Shown here in pieces: positions 36,154 through 42,784 of a stretch of DNA of 64,000 bases (the stretch's first letter is position 1; the number at the start of each line of letters is the position of its first letter). The notes beneath the pieces were generated by a model. It was not told the origin of the DNA. It did no database searches and was given only the letters and a program-made list of their open reading frames with translations. This DNA comes from Gammaproteobacteria bacterium. Lineage in GTDB: Bacteria > Pseudomonadota > Gammaproteobacteria > SZUA-152. Made by a program: the position numbers and the translations under genes. The stretch spans positions 62,001-126,000 of the forward strand of contig DROS01000069.1 in NCBI GenBank assembly GCA_011321815.1, written 5' to 3'.

Positions 36154-38517
36154 ATGTACGAGTCTTTTTACGAGCTATACAAGCCCCCGTTTCGGCTGAC
36201 GCCTGATCCACACTTTTTCTTTGATAGTCGTACTCATAAACGCGGCCTGGCTTATTTACGTTATGCTGTGCAGCAGGGCGAGGGGTTTGTCGTCATCACC
36301 GGCGGCCCGGGAACCGGCAAGACAGAGCTGATGCTCAATCTCATTGAGGAGCTGTCTCAGTTCCGCACCACATTTGCAAAAATTGTTTCAACCAATGTGG
36401 ATTCTGACGATCTGTTGAAATTGGTGGCGGTTTCCTTTGGGCTTTCTTCTGAAGGTCTCGGTAAGGGGCTTTTGCTGAAGAAGCTGGAAAACTTCTTTAT
36501 GGCCTGCGCCCGCCAGGGGAGGCGGGCGCTTTTGCTGATTGATGAGGCGCACATTTTGTCGGCAGCCTCGCTTTTAGAGCTTTCCATGTTGTCCAATTTC
36601 CAGCTTGGTGAAAAGGCGATATTGCAATGTTTCCTGCTTGGACAAGAGCCATTGGAGACGAGGCTTGCAGACCCGGGTCTGGCTCAGATTAGGCAGCGTG
36701 TCATTGCGTCCAGCCATCTGGACCCGTTAGATGAAACCGAGACCGGGCAGTATATCAAACACCGTCTGGCCCAGGCCGGTTGGGAGGGTAAACCCCGGCT
36801 CCACGATAACGCCTATCCACTAATCCATAAATTTACAGGTGGAATTCCGCGGCAGATTAATTCCCTTTGTAACCGTTTATTAGTGCAGGGATTTATCGAC
36901 GAAAAGTACGAGATTGATGTCGGGGTCGTGCGCACGGTCATTAAGGATATGTTAGCGGAGACAGTGGTCGCTCATGCGCCTTACAGTGTTTGTGAGCCTG
37001 TTGTCGCTTCGTTTGCAAATTCAGGGAGTTCTGCTCATTGCCGCGGCCAGTCGAAGACACCGGTAACGAAGGCCGATGTGCAACCCCGTGCGCCGGCAGT
37101 AGCGCTGAAAATGGTGGATGTGGCTGCTGAGACGCCGACTGTCCATGCGGGCCCGGCGCATGCCGGTGCCCGTCAGGAACGGGTGCATGATGGGGCGCGT
37201 CGACTGCCGCATCGTTTGGCGGAAAACAGTCAGGCTGAGCGGGAGTTGCGCGCCAGAATCGCTTTTTTTGTTAATGCCGGACTAGCGGAGAATAATGGCC
37301 AAAGACTTCCCCGTCTAACACCCCCAGGTGGTGCGCAGCAACATAATGGCGGCGTGCACGGCGTTCAGGTTTCGTCAGCTGTTACGGCGACAGACAGGCG
37401 TTCTTCCTCAGGCTGGAAATGGGCCGCTGTCACAGGTGTTATTGTTCTTGGCATGGTTTTTACACCCCAGCTTTGGTTTAGCAGTGAGCCGGTTGAAATA
37501 ATGAGCACACGGGGTAGCGAGAGTACCAATAAGCTGACAATCGCCGCAATTGGTCCAGTGGCAATGCGGGATGTGGTCGACAGTGAACAAGTTTCCAGTC
37601 CCGTAAACACGGTAGAGGTGACGCAAAATGACAACAGTCTGCTGATGCCTGCGGGGATTCCGCTTCCTGACGTCATTGCCGGACTCCGTGCGCCATTAAC
37701 GGCAGGCTCGACAGATCCGCCGCCGCTGGGGAAAGGCAAGGCTGCGGAGGTTGCTGCGGCAGTGGGCCAGGAAGTGAAGAAGGATGATGCGCCCATGGTG
37801 GCGCCTCTGGCGCTCCGTGATGAGGCCCCCGCTGTTTCACAACAACAGTCTGTTAATGCTCCAAGCCAAAAACCAGCACAGGGCAAGGTGGCGGCAGCCT
37901 CGTCTGCCGGGGGGCTTCCACGCAAAATACCAGAGAGAAAATTGGCGCCGGAAAAACAAGCGCCTGTGATGCCCGCTGCCGCCGTGGGGGCGTCGGCAAC
38001 AATAATGCCCATACCATCATCGCCATTTCTGGCGCCTGTTGAACCTGCCAGCAGCAAACACATTGTGACGGCGCCCATGAAAAATGCGCCCTATGAGAAG
38101 AATCGCATTAGTGCTGATTCTCTCGAATCAAGTGCTGAAGTAAAAGCCGGTATTGCCATGGCCGAGTTGGATCTTTTGCTGGCAAGGCTTACGTCTGCTT
38201 ATGAGACAGGAAATCTTCGAAAATTGGTCGGTATTTTTGCTGAGAATGCGCGTAGTAATGACAGGGTGAGTCTTGATGAGATCGAAGAGGATTACCGCAA
38301 GTTATTTAATGTTACCGATATGCGCAGGATGACCATCAGTGACATTCAATGGGCAAAAGATAAAGGTCAAATGCGCGGCAAGGGAAATTTTCAATTATCA
38401 GTGCGTGAGAAAGGTGCAGGGAGAGTGACATCCTATGATGGCAGTATCAGGCTGGGCGTAACAAAGAGCAGGCAGGGTATTGCCATTACCCGCCTTGATT
38501 ATCGCTATGACAAATAA
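36154..38517 (+). CDS. ExeA/GspA-like AAA ATPase with TM segment and NTF2-like C-terminal domain
   Basis: The 787-residue protein opens with the ExeA-type start YESFYELYKPPFRLTPDPHFFF. The AAA domain has Walker A GGPGTGKTE (about residues 48-56), Walker B LLLIDEAH (about 124-131), and a sensor region ending GGIPRQINSLCNRLL. After a polar stretch comes one membrane helix (AAVTGVIVLGMVFTPQLWF, about 424-442), then about 220 residues rich in Pro, Ala and Val. The last 110 residues (from AELDLLLARLTSAYETGNL) resemble an NTF2/SnoaL-like domain, not the peptidoglycan-binding domain typical of ExeA. Cytoplasmic ATPase and periplasmic domain are thus linked in one chain. Start chosen at 36154 after GACAGGAG. 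It is probably the first gene of a three-gene envelope unit. Confidence 0.85.
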   Translation: MYESFYELYKPPFRLTPDPHFFFDSRTHKRGLAYLRYAVQQGEGFVVITGGPGTGKTELMLNLIEELSQFRTTFAKIVSTNVDSDDLLKLVAVSFGLSSEGLGKGLLLKKLENFFMACARQGRRALLLIDEAHILSAASLLELSMLSNFQLGEKAILQCFLLGQEPLETRLADPGLAQIRQRVIASSHLDPLDETETGQYIKHRLAQAGWEGKPRLHDNAYPLIHKFTGGIPRQINSLCNRLLVQGFIDEKYEIDVGVVRTVIKDMLAETVVAHAPYSVCEPVVASFANSGSSAHCRGQSKTPVTKADVQPRAPAVALKMVDVAAETPTVHAGPAHAGARQERVHDGARRLPHRLAENSQAERELRARIAFFVNAGLAENNGQRLPRLTPPGGAQQHNGGVHGVQVSSAVTATDRRSSSGWKWAAVTGVIVLGMVFTPQLWFSSEPVEIMSTRGSESTNKLTIAAIGPVAMRDVVDSEQVSSPVNTVEVTQNDNSLLMPAGIPLPDVIAGLRAPLTAGSTDPPPLGKGKAAEVAAAVGQEVKKDDAPMVAPLALRDEAPAVSQQQSVNAPSQKPAQGKVAAASSAGGLPRKIPERKLAPEKQAPVMPAAAVGASATIMPIPSSPFLAPVEPASSKHIVTAPMKNAPYEKNRISADSLESSAEVKAGIAMAELDLLLARLTSAYETGNLRKLVGIFAENARSNDRVSLDEIEEDYRKLFNVTDMRRMTISDIQWAKDKGQMRGKGNFQLSVREKGAGRVTSYDGSIRLGVTKSRQGIAITRLDYRYDK

Positions 38518-38549
38518 TGCATGCTTGAGGCTGTAAGAAATTGCTGTTT

Positions 38550-39176
38550 ATGAAAACTGATAAAGTTAATTGTTTGGGAAAAAGTCTGTATCCCGTCCTG
38601 GTGTTTTTGGCGATGGTTATCGGCCGCCCGGCATATGCAGGAGCCCTCGGTTTGCCGGAGAGTACGGCGAGACTGGGGTATGCTGTGGGTGTTGCTGCCG
38701 TGTCTGTCGATGATCCGGCCGGGGATACCGGGAGGGAATGGACGATGTTGCCGATGACGTTGATTCATACTGACTGGCTGTTTGGCGATATCCGTTATTG
38801 GTCAGCGTTTTTTTATTACAAGGCATCGCTGGATGCCGCTGTGAATAAGGTTGGTCAAAATGTGGAGCAGTATGGCCTCCGGTTTTCTCTACAAAAAAGC
38901 CTGAGAGTCGCGCGCTTGTGGGCCCCCTGGTTTGGCGTGGGCATCGCTGCTTCCCGGGCAACGTACACCACCCGTCATATTGTGGACGCAGACGGTTTCC
39001 TGATTGATACCTATCCTGATCGTGAACAAACATCTGTCGCATTGTTGCTTAATGTTGTCAGTGAATGGTCTTTAACCCGAGATTGGGATATCGGGGCAAA
39101 ACTTGAGTACGCCATTCCTGTGGATGGCGATATTGATGAAACCTCAGCCCTGATAACACTGTTATACCGATATTGA
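38550..39176 (+). CDS. Probable outer-membrane beta-barrel protein
   Basis: A 208-residue exported protein with a signal peptide (LVFLAMVIGRPAYA). Alternating hydrophobic and polar residues in many short strands follow (YGLRFSLQKSLRV, APWFGVGIAAS, VALLLNVVSEWSL). The C-terminal ITLLYRY ends in an aromatic residue, as recognised by the BAM machinery. This looks like an eight-stranded barrel of the OmpW or OmpA type, but I cannot assign a family. It lies 32 bases after the ATPase gene and 27 before the lipoprotein gene, suggesting one operon. Confidence 0.72.
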   Translation: MKTDKVNCLGKSLYPVLVFLAMVIGRPAYAGALGLPESTARLGYAVGVAAVSVDDPAGDTGREWTMLPMTLIHTDWLFGDIRYWSAFFYYKASLDAAVNKVGQNVEQYGLRFSLQKSLRVARLWAPWFGVGIAASRATYTTRHIVDADGFLIDTYPDREQTSVALLLNVVSEWSLTRDWDIGAKLEYAIPVDGDIDETSALITLLYRY

Positions 39177-39203
39177 TACAAGCAAAGGCGTAAATTGCCA
39201 ATC

Positions 39204-42194
39204 ATGAACATCACAGCAATATGCAAACAAGGTCTCCTGTTACTCCTGCTACTTGTCGTTGTGCCATTCCTGGCAGGCTGTTCCCCTGGAGGTTCGCAGA
39301 GCCTGCCTGAAACACGCCCGGCCGGCACCATAAAAGGTAATGTTGTCGATGGTGTTATCGTGGGCGCCCGTGTGACGGCTTATGGTTTTACTGGCGGTGT
39401 GCGTGGTGTGACACTGGGCAGTGCAATCACTGATGAAAAGGGAAGCTATGCCATTGAAGTACAGGCCCCGGATCAACCGGTTTTGATTGAAGTCAGTGGT
39501 GGCCGTTATGTAGAGGATGCCAGTGGTTCTTCTGTTGCATTGGCTGATGGGCAGGTTTTGCGTGCCATGGCGAGGTACGAGTCTGGAAAGAGTGTTGATG
39601 TCATGGTGACGCCACTTACACATCTTGTAACAGGGTTGGCCGACTATAAAATTACCAATGGTTCGCCGGTCAATCAGGCGATCATGGAAGCGATGGAGGA
39701 TATCAATAACTTCTTTGCCGTGGATGTTGGCAGAACACAGCCACTTGCCATTGTCGACGCAAATAATGCCATTTCAGACCTCAACGATGAAATATTGTAT
39801 GGGTTCTATTTGGCCGGACTTTCCAACTGGACGGCATGGGCAGGCAATGAAAACAGCGCCCCGCATACCACTTACTCATCAATCGCTTTGATGCAGGTGC
39901 TTTACAATGATATCCGTTCCGATGGCGTGCTGAATGGCACGGGATATAACCGGGAGGGCACAGCGTTAATGCCGCTTGCCTTTGGGCGGGTGGCCCTTGA
40001 TGCCAATACTTTTCGCATTGCATTTTCTCTGCACATGCTGGCGATAGCCAATAGCGATAAAAACAAAACAGGGCTGGGGCCCGACAAACTGCTTGCCGCT
40101 GCCCGGCAAATTGCATCACAAACCGGCGTGCTGTTGGGCGCATCGACGCCGATCAATATTGACGACCAATCACCTGAAGTGACCATAATGCGGTCGGCTG
40201 ACGAGTATTACAGCGGGGTTTTCAGCTTTGAGATAGCCATTGGAGGGCTTTTGGGTGCCGAAAGGGTCAGTCTGTCTGTCGATGGTGAGCCAGCGGTCGA
40301 ATTCGATGATCCTGCGGCCACCCTGGTCGTTTTCGATACCACCGATTATGCAGATGGCGAGCATGAGATTCTTATTGCTGCAACCGACGCTCTCGGGAAC
40401 ACGGCGAGCAGCAGCTTTGTTATACAGTTTGATAATACAGCACCGGTGATCAGTGTCAGCTCCCCTCCCGCAAGCGCTCAGACGAGCACACTGATCAGCG
40501 GCACATACAGTGACAATGTCTCCGGTGTTCAGTCCATCATCGCACAGGGGCAACAGGCCACGTTGTTTACCGATGGAACCTGGAATGCCGCCGTCAATAT
40601 TGAACCCGGCAAAAACATCATTCCGATAACCGTGATCGACCGGGTTGGCAAACGGCTTGATACCCAAACCATCCTGTATTTGGATGTGGTAGCCCCGGTT
40701 ATTGATGCCACTGACAGGCATAGTCTCGCTCGTTTTTCCAATGGTGATGGCAGCTATACAGAGGCGGCTTTGCAGGATGTGAACGATGCCCAGGCATTGT
40801 ATTTTGAAACGGACTCTGTTGATCTCAATGGTGTGCAGATTGGCAGGTCGGCATTAAACAATAATTCAATACCTTACTTTGCCTTTAGCGTTACAGATCA
40901 AATGGGCCCGGATGCCATTACAGCGCCGGATGCCATACAGGTGCGTATCCAATACGAACGAAGCGGTGAAATCATAAGTCCCTGGCGGATTATTACCCCC
41001 ATCAATACTGAATATCTGCTCCCGTTGGTGTCCGAGGTGCTGGCGCCTGACTGGCATCAGGCTACGCCCGAAGACGAGCATATGATTCGGGTTGAGGTGA
41101 GCGATTCCGCAGGCAACCTGAGTAACCTGAATTTCAGTTTCCGCACAGATTTTTATGTGCCCATATTCAGCATGGACACCATTGATGACCTTGGCGCCGG
41201 CATCTTCCTGAATACGGATTTTGCAGACCGGGCAATGCTCAACAATATGGAATTTGCCAGCACGGCTTATACCTTTACCAACACTGTAGGCAAATCCTTT
41301 TATCTGTCCCTTAGCGATACTTCGGCGCATACCACCACGCAGACCGTTGATCAGTTGGTAAGAGAGCATCGGGTCAACATCAAAACCACAACTGAATGGC
41401 AACTGGGATTAATGACTCCCACCGATCAATGCCCGGCCATGACCGGTTGGACAACCACATCCTCAGTGTGGAACTGGACCGGTTCTGCCTGGGTGGAGGA
41501 GCAAGTCCCGGGGCCAACCTACGGTGGCGAAGAATCGGTTTTCGATGATACATTGCCAGCATCGCCCGCTCCGTCGGATTGGAGCGATGCACCTGATTTC
41601 GATGGGCAATTCAAAATCACAACTATTGATAATTCACCACTGTCGATTTTGACCTACGGTTATGATTATATCCTGAGCCCATCCATCACCCCTCAGGCCG
41701 GATACGTATTTGCCTGGGTATATCAGGATCTTGGTAACACCACATCCACAACATGCCCACCAAAACGCTATTTTCAACAACGTGAAATTTACACTTACGA
41801 ATCTGTTTCAGGTTACCCGAAACCGGTTCTGTCATCCGTATCAGTTGCCGGCACGCCTGATTTTGCAACAAGCAACTTTGTTGTAATGGATAATGATACC
41901 GGTTTGGCCATAGAGCCCGTAGATGGCTGGTATCGAATCCTGGCAGGGCATTCTGTGACGATCAGAAAGTCGGTCACCACTCCCGGGTTGGTGTTCTACA
42001 ATGATGATGTTTCAGATCTGACCGGTTTTTCCAGTTATACGCCAAACTGGAATGACAGCAGCGTCCTTTGGGCGGTTGACCGGAGTTTGATGATTTCTGT
42101 TATTCACGATGCGGGAAATTCGAATATATCCGCGATGCCAGCGCGCAGTATGAGCAGTGGGGCAGGCATGTTCATCTACCAGATCAGCAGGTAG
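39204..42194 (+). CDS. Large lipoprotein with carboxypeptidase-regulatory-like and Ig-like domains
   Basis: A 996-residue surface or periplasmic protein. The signal ends in a lipobox LAGC with the lipidated Cys at residue 26 and Ser at +2, favouring the outer membrane. A carboxypeptidase-regulatory-like fold follows (GTIKGNVVDGVIVGARVTAYGF region, about 37-110). A mostly helical part extends to about 310. Two Ig/cadherin-like repeats come next (DGEHEILIAATDALGNTASS; GKNIIPITVIDRVGKRLDT), and the C-terminal half is rich in Trp, Ser and Thr with no family I can name. Asp-rich turns suggest Ca2+ binding. It is the last gene of the ATPase-barrel-lipoprotein unit. Starting at TTG 39195 is also possible. 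Confidence 0.78.
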   Translation: MNITAICKQGLLLLLLLVVVPFLAGCSPGGSQSLPETRPAGTIKGNVVDGVIVGARVTAYGFTGGVRGVTLGSAITDEKGSYAIEVQAPDQPVLIEVSGGRYVEDASGSSVALADGQVLRAMARYESGKSVDVMVTPLTHLVTGLADYKITNGSPVNQAIMEAMEDINNFFAVDVGRTQPLAIVDANNAISDLNDEILYGFYLAGLSNWTAWAGNENSAPHTTYSSIALMQVLYNDIRSDGVLNGTGYNREGTALMPLAFGRVALDANTFRIAFSLHMLAIANSDKNKTGLGPDKLLAAARQIASQTGVLLGASTPINIDDQSPEVTIMRSADEYYSGVFSFEIAIGGLLGAERVSLSVDGEPAVEFDDPAATLVVFDTTDYADGEHEILIAATDALGNTASSSFVIQFDNTAPVISVSSPPASAQTSTLISGTYSDNVSGVQSIIAQGQQATLFTDGTWNAAVNIEPGKNIIPITVIDRVGKRLDTQTILYLDVVAPVIDATDRHSLARFSNGDGSYTEAALQDVNDAQALYFETDSVDLNGVQIGRSALNNNSIPYFAFSVTDQMGPDAITAPDAIQVRIQYERSGEIISPWRIITPINTEYLLPLVSEVLAPDWHQATPEDEHMIRVEVSDSAGNLSNLNFSFRTDFYVPIFSMDTIDDLGAGIFLNTDFADRAMLNNMEFASTAYTFTNTVGKSFYLSLSDTSAHTTTQTVDQLVREHRVNIKTTTEWQLGLMTPTDQCPAMTGWTTTSSVWNWTGSAWVEEQVPGPTYGGEESVFDDTLPASPAPSDWSDAPDFDGQFKITTIDNSPLSILTYGYDYILSPSITPQAGYVFAWVYQDLGNTTSTTCPPKRYFQQREIYTYESVSGYPKPVLSSVSVAGTPDFATSNFVVMDNDTGLAIEPVDGWYRILAGHSVTIRKSVTTPGLVFYNDDVSDLTGFSSYTPNWNDSSVLWAVDRSLMISVIHDAGNSNISAMPARSMSSGAGMFIYQISR

Positions 42195-42319: not shown

Positions 42320-42784
42320 TCAGGAACTTACCTTTGCCGTTTTTCTTTTTTTCCGTCTCTTTTTTGGTTTGCTCATTGCTTTGTCAGCAGAGGCAATTGC
42401 TTTTGTGTAGACGGTTGCACGCTTGGCGACGACCTTGAGTGCGGATAGTTCGGCAATGGCCAACGATTTTTCAGCCGTAATTTTGGCCGCTTCTTTTTTG
42501 TTGGCTGCAATGTCTTTCTCGATGCTTTTGAGTGCTTTTTGGTTGGCAGCTGAGGAATCTTTGTTCAAAGCGGCTCTGGCTGCTTTTTTCTTTTTCATCA
42601 GCGTTGCCAGTTTTTTTGCGAGACGCTTGGATTCAGCCAGTAGTTTTTTCTTGTTTTTGGTTGTGCTAACCACTGCTTTTGACGTTAAAGTCGCCGCATC
42701 TTTCAGGCTGGCAATGGCATCATCTACAGATTTCAGTGATTTATTGCTCGATACAGCAGATTTGGTTTTCTTTTTTACGGCCAT
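42320..42784 (-). CDS. Lys/Ala-rich histone-H1-like protein
   Basis: A 154-residue, very basic protein made mainly of Lys, Ala, Ser and Thr (KKKTKSAVSSNKSLK, KKKKAARAALNKD and the end KPKKRRKKRKTAKVSS). The middle shows helical periodicity. Such composition is seen in bacterial H1-like and AlgP-like proteins that coat DNA. A clear AGGAG precedes the ATG. It is on the strand opposite to the lipoprotein gene and convergent with it. A DNA-binding role is inferred from composition alone. A second Lys-rich DNA-binding protein is encoded at 54.0 kb. Confidence 0.7.
   Translation of the reverse strand: MAVKKKTKSAVSSNKSLKSVDDAIASLKDAATLTSKAVVSTTKNKKKLLAESKRLAKKLATLMKKKKAARAALNKDSSAANQKALKSIEKDIAANKKEAAKITAEKSLAIAELSALKVVAKRATVYTKAIASADKAMSKPKKRRKKRKTAKVSS

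Follow-up and report, generated by a model that had tools for sequence, protein, structure and literature searches.

A conserved three-gene envelope unit of an ATPase-NTF2 fusion, a candidate outer-membrane barrel and an Ig-like lipoprotein in Gammaproteobacteria

Results and discussion

Organization of the locus

The window, i.e. the whole stretch of 64,000 nucleotides that was analysed, contains three consecutive genes on the forward strand. All three open reading frames were present, and the gaps of 32 bases (ATPase to barrel) and 27 bases (barrel to lipoprotein) given in an earlier note on this DNA were exact. The features are:

36154..38517, + strand: ATPase-NTF2 gene, 787 aa
38071..38514, + strand: stretch of the modelled NTF2-like domain (AF2 on alignment A4)
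38550..39176, + strand: barrel candidate gene, 208 aa
39204..42194, + strand: lipoprotein gene, 996 aa
42276..42296, + strand: inverted repeat AACCCACC-GCTTG-GGTGGGTT, about 80 bases 3' of the lipoprotein gene, spotted in the sequence

Genes glmU and glmS, named by reading their sequences, lie upstream of the unit. Downstream, the opposite strand encodes a small lysine-rich protein and a PAS/GGDEF/EAL-like regulator, the latter also recognized by sequence reading. The small protein (42320-42784, - strand, 154 aa), the first after the unit, is histone-H1-like. The inverted repeat is a possible end of the transcription unit; the terminator scan, for which a T run is required, did not pick it up, and the consensus promoter and terminator scan gave fewer sites than were found in shuffled sequences. 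Within the ATPase coding sequence (36506-36529) there is also a hairpin with a perfect all-GC stem of 9 bp and TTTT after it. Inspection of the neighbours by eye disclosed no VirB4 or VirB9/VirB10 genes next to the window unit; genes of this kind accompanied only more distant barrel-lipoprotein pairs. Likewise, no GspB or secretin genes were found as neighbours of the unit or of its homologues, their place being taken by the barrel and lipoprotein genes.

The ATPase protein

The product of the first gene is composed of an AAA domain (1-267), a cytoplasmic spacer, a transmembrane (TM) segment (424-442), a Pro/Ala linker and an NTF2-like domain (approximately 664-787). The single membrane helix and the 220-residue linker described previously were both recovered: the TM segment is the only one, with positive charges flanking its cytoplasmic side, and the linker, of low complexity, comprises about 221 residues (12% Pro, 16% Ala). 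Linker length ranged from 174 to 347 residues across units with a called TM segment, this segment falling under the hydropathy threshold in relatives L061, L062, L066 and L103.

The AAA domain matched TIGR03015, the family of XrtA/PEP-CTERM ATPases, with an E-value of 7.5e-94 (covering 1-267 of 269), and its 314.1 bits lie just under the curated cut-off of 324.5 bits. Relatives scored between 265 and 316 bits, and a paralogue from the host genome reached 365 bits, above the cut-off. Pfam scanning further gave a match to PF13401 (3.3e-18). Walker A and B residues T49, G50, G53, G55-T57 and D130/E131 were invariant in alignment A3 of eight relatives, and the ATPase domain of the window protein is intact as far as its sequence tells. 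The protein had been described as an ExeA/GspA-type ATPase, of which the AAA domain with both Walker motifs stands; its affinities, however, are closer to the XrtA/PEP-CTERM ATPases than to GspA. The reported lack of a nearby exosortase extends to the whole host genome (G000, 99% complete), where no PF09721 match was found at E<=1e-3.

The fusion had also been considered unusual. A literature search that covered few of the subscription journals found no description of this architecture, but it is not unique to the locus, the host paralogue combining AAA, a J-like region, a TM segment and two NTF2 domains. The ATPases of three-gene units may have one origin or more than one, the ATPase tree counting two changes. 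One relative (L102:8835-10259), its gene cut by the contig end, displays a long (Pro-Glu)n repeat in its cytoplasmic part.

The C-terminal NTF2-like domain

AF2 modelling from nine sequences (alignment A4) yielded an NTF2 fold with a core pLDDT of about 95 and an H-H-E-H-E-E-E-E order of elements. The best VIA-align match was 3ef8 (Z 17.5, 127 residues, rmsd 2.1); others were Csd6 (4xzz, Z 15.7), rat NTF2 (1oun, Z 15.4) and Bd1075 (7o21, Z 15.1). The C-terminal domain as modelled is an NTF2 fold of the NTF2-like superfamily.

The VirB8/DotI components of type IV secretion systems (T4SS) are inner-membrane proteins with a periplasmic NTF2-type domain. Kinship of the window domain with the VirB8/DotI-like proteins of T4SS loci was considered and rejected at the sequence level, HH comparison having found none; the absence of VirB8 among the 50 VIA matches listed excludes nothing. 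Plasmid records contained no relative of the NTF2 domain at E<=1e-5.

The earlier note had this domain standing in place of a peptidoglycan-binding one. Its fold and the absence of a PF01471-type domain from the Pfam scan agree with this. Whether the domain is itself a known peptidoglycan-binding fold, which the note had named as a refuting case, gets an ambiguous answer: in Campylobacter Pgp2 a domain of this fold binds peptidoglycan (PMC8038945), but its pocket residues K257 and K307 find no counterparts in the window domain. The NTF2 domain of Bd1075 directs the protein to one cell face (PMC8938487). In an L-INS-i alignment of low identity, and hence fallible, Pgp2 pocket residues Y233, K257 and K307 stood opposite L691, Y714 and I765 of P0001, and Pgp2 W225 opposite the invariant Y683. 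The Pgp2 pocket, as aligned, is not conserved in the window domain, which may bind peptidoglycan through residues outside a pocket of this type. HH comparison with Cds6-type NTF2 domains gave nothing, and a weak profile match (E ~0.01) was obtained to the NTF2-like N-terminal domain of PBP5/PBP2a.

The barrel candidate and the lipoprotein

The 208-aa protein remains a candidate, though a likely one, for a small outer-membrane beta-barrel, as previously proposed. A signal peptide and a C-terminal LLYRY were read from its sequence, and 3 out of 11 family members matched PF13505 at E<=0.01 (best 4e-5; 17.9 bits against a gathering cut-off of 28.7). Members displayed 34-71% identity in alignment A1, and the family profile found no outer-membrane protein among PDB sequences.

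The third product is the 996-residue Ig-like lipoprotein announced by the first reading. It displays an LAGC lipobox, whose cysteine is visible in aligned relatives with a complete N-terminus, and Ig-like domains at about 376-486; Big_13 and Glucodextran_B were each detected in all ten members scanned. The AF2 model of its C-terminal half (residues 496-996) is all-beta (pLDDT 91). Its top Foldseek matches were ice-binding adhesin domains (4p99, 6x6q), with the biofilm scaffold RbmA lower, and xanthanase and glucan-binding entries also occurred; these matches are weak (Foldseek TM-scores <=0.25, VIA Z <=7.5), and the lipoprotein profile matched nothing in the PDB. The predicted fold suits an extracellular Ig-type protein without identifying a function, and the label "adhesin" is a guess from the architecture. 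As VIA can miss a single domain inside a 501-residue model, we do not call this fold new.

Conservation and variants of the unit

Whether the three genes co-occur elsewhere had been set as a test of the original proposal. The full order ATPase-NTF2, barrel and lipoprotein recurred in five families of Gammaproteobacteria, well beyond chance, and the three genes are therefore a real conserved envelope unit. Its occurrences are:

f1: the window, L061/L077, L062/L078 and L083 (same genus); L066/L087 (same family); L076 (same family) is cut by the contig end
f23: L067/L085 (G045)
f53: L073 (G075)
f81: L099 and L101 (G227, G330)
f128: L103 and L106 (G358, G263)

The barrel family was found in 17 of the 369 genomes sampled from the class and, by hand count, a lipoprotein homologue directly adjoins the barrel at 22 of 26 places. 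The first protein was more variable. That of G014 (L063/L080) has no AAA part and consists of some 35 residues, TM segment, linker and NTF2 domain, followed by the usual barrel and lipoprotein; no credible ATPase match turned up when all frames of the 16-kb locus were searched. Since its NTF2 domain is nested, with 98/99 support, among those of AAA-bearing relatives, a loss of the AAA part is probable. The ATPase before the barrel and lipoprotein is replaced in G059 (L071) by a protein that pairs a degenerate DnaJ domain (PF00226) with an NTF2 domain, and the clustering of the latter with J/EPS-type proteins (modest support) suggests a gene replacement. Finally, barrel and lipoprotein occur in G010, G013 and L089 with no NTF2 protein at all and can work alone. 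From these variants, the barrel-lipoprotein pair appears stable and the NTF2 protein its frequent but non-obligatory companion; the AAA domain is the least constant part rather than the conserved core of the unit.

The polysaccharide-export paralogue

Four TIGR03015 relatives were recorded in the host genome: the window protein, another at C21, one of MSHA type (L059) and one bearing SPOR (L060), which is probably DamX and stands beside apparent aroK/aroB genes. The C21 protein (1089 aa), the 365-bit paralogue mentioned above, is the only other ATPase-NTF2 protein of the host. It heads a polysaccharide-export locus:

L058:12146-20000 and L090:1-2887: gene of the C21 protein, then genes for YjbH (PF06082), an SLBB export protein of Wza type, a Wzz protein and an APS kinase

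The window ATPase probably derives from this polysaccharide-export type, because the only other ATPase-NTF2 protein of its host heads a YjbH/Wza/Wzz locus. J-NTF2 proteins also occurred in or near polysaccharide loci of G090 (Wza/Wzc/Wzy-type) and G045. Beside the C21 locus (L058:5940-8156), a small Ras-like/ATP_bind_1 GTPase with short companions resembles an MglA-type module.

Barrel homologues at secretion-system loci

At four loci (L107, L108, L112 and L113, the last three cut by contig ends), VirB4-, VirB5-, VirB6-, VirB8-, VirB9- and VirB10-like genes occurred in this order and were followed by barrel and lipoprotein genes. Profiles supported VirB4 (TraC-type, 7.8e-21) and VirB10/TrbI (5.3e-7), the remaining VirB names resting on gene order and size. 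Locus L107 (also L117) belongs to the MOBP plasmid of Candidatus Tenderia electrophaga (CP013100.1, 106,908 bases), whose large replicon carries the ATPase-NTF2 form (L106). Barrels with no adjacent lipoprotein stood beside clear VirB genes (L110) and Dot/Icm genes (L111). A distant barrel relative opens a type VI secretion system (T6SS) cluster in Vibrio sp. THAF191d, with TagH, TssJ, TssK and TssL coming after it and TssA and TssM divergent.

CP013100.1 68511-78977: VirB-type T4SS operon ending in barrel and lipoprotein (Tel_17045-17080, all annotated "hypothetical")
L118:5983-6585: distant barrel relative of Vibrio, unannotated there (HMM 7e-18; reciprocal 1.6e-10 to the window barrel)

What surprises most in these results is that the pair recurs at T4SS loci and the barrel at a T6SS locus. 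The pair might be a portable outer-membrane accessory of several envelope machines, serving AAA-NTF2 or J-NTF2 arms and VirB-type T4SSs, with the barrel alone at Dot/Icm and at the Vibrio T6SS, and docking via a periplasmic NTF2-fold protein that belongs to the inner-membrane part of each machine; we consider this reading as a whole improbable. A shared NTF2 fold as docking element is a conjecture, since HH comparison linked the window domain to neither VirB8 nor DotI.

Proposed mechanism and alternatives

We infer, tentatively and with a probability of about 0.45, that the three genes specify a single envelope-spanning device, whose ATPase-coupled arm serves to assemble, hold or gate a barrel of the outer membrane with a surface adhesin. 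GspA/ExeA-type ATPases assemble at the inner face of the inner membrane, and the AAA part would do so here. The linker would take the NTF2 domain through the periplasm to the outer membrane, where it would dock on the barrel-lipoprotein pair and assemble, hold or gate it. In this way the lipoprotein would come to be displayed on the cell surface, to act there as an adhesin or to bind the matrix. The ATPase, probably derived from the polysaccharide-export paralogue, might modulate or energize the action of the NTF2 domain on the pair and would not be essential in all relatives. Because some relatives do without the AAA domain, we regard it as more probably regulatory, or a help in assembly, than as the only motor driving a secretion machine; that the whole serves secretion or assembly is likewise presumed.

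The genomic setting of the paralogue invites another reading, in which the unit arose by duplication as a side-branch of the exopolysaccharide-export ATPase system and its NTF2 domain and lipoprotein bind the polymer or the exporter, anchoring the matrix. In its favour are the domain set of the paralogue and its position before YjbH, Wza and Wzz, the J-NTF2 protein in the Wza/Wzc/Wzy-type locus, the name of TIGR03015 as an XrtA EPS-locus family and, from the weak structural matches to the lipoprotein, RbmA and the polysaccharide-related entries. We nevertheless hold it to be doubtful: the examined loci of the three-gene unit had no relative of Wza, Wzz or YjbH next to it, the EPS loci that were inspected showed neither barrel nor lipoprotein, and the same pair adjoins T4SS genes.

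A peptidoglycan-anchored assembly factor also seems unlikely. The NTF2 domain would here replace the peptidoglycan-binding domain of GspA, and the ATPase would remodel or hold the wall for insertion of the barrel complex. The lack of the Pgp2 pocket residues and of any HH match to Cds6-type domains weighs against it, whereas the peptidoglycan binding of Pgp2, the one-face targeting of Bd1075, the structural closeness of Csd6 and Bd1075 to the model and the faint PBP5/PBP2a match are in its favour. It also has a precedent in ExeA, which contacts peptidoglycan, and ExeB, for secretin assembly (PMC4098917). That the genes are unrelated and share only a promoter would fit the pairs that lack an NTF2 protein. 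It is very improbable given an order held in five families and the NTF2 protein kept before the pair in G014 and G059 despite loss or replacement of the AAA part.

If the envelope-spanning device is real, a cytoplasmic ATPase with a periplasm-crossing arm would offer bacteria a compact route for controlling a surface lipoprotein. One small barrel family would then tie polysaccharide-export ATPases to accessory genes of T4SS and T6SS, and operons annotated entirely as "hypothetical", such as that of the Candidatus Tenderia electrophaga plasmid, would become testable systems.

Comparison with known systems

The window ATPase resembles the XrtA/PEP-CTERM ATPases of TIGR03015 in an AAA domain matched end to end. 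It differs by a score below the cut-off, by the added TM segment, linker and NTF2 domain, by a genome devoid of exosortase and by its position outside an EPS locus. With GspA/ExeA, the T2SS assembly ATPase, it shares a cytoplasmic AAA domain, one TM segment and a periplasmic domain, to which analogy would add a part in outer-membrane assembly; yet its periplasmic domain is NTF2, and it is accompanied by a small barrel and an Ig lipoprotein instead of GspB and a secretin. The LD-carboxypeptidases Pgp2, Csd6 and Bd1075 have a periplasmic NTF2 fold as well (Z 15.1-15.7 to Bd1075 and Csd6), but the window protein has no LD-carboxypeptidase domain and does not conserve the Pgp2 pocket residues. The parallel with VirB8/DotI lies in an inner-membrane protein that bears an NTF2-type domain in the periplasm, and in the barrel-lipoprotein homologues that come after VirB10-like genes in T4SS operons; in the window unit, by contrast, AAA and NTF2 are on the same chain, VirB4, VirB9 and VirB10 are missing, and HH gave no sequence link. 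The C21 protein is of the same ATPase family and has a TM segment and the same NTF2 domain family; the window protein differs from it by lacking the J-like region, the second NTF2 copy and the polysaccharide-exporter partners. The ATPase and NTF2 families are known and their combination already exists in the EPS paralogue, and the three-gene unit itself is an unnamed one.
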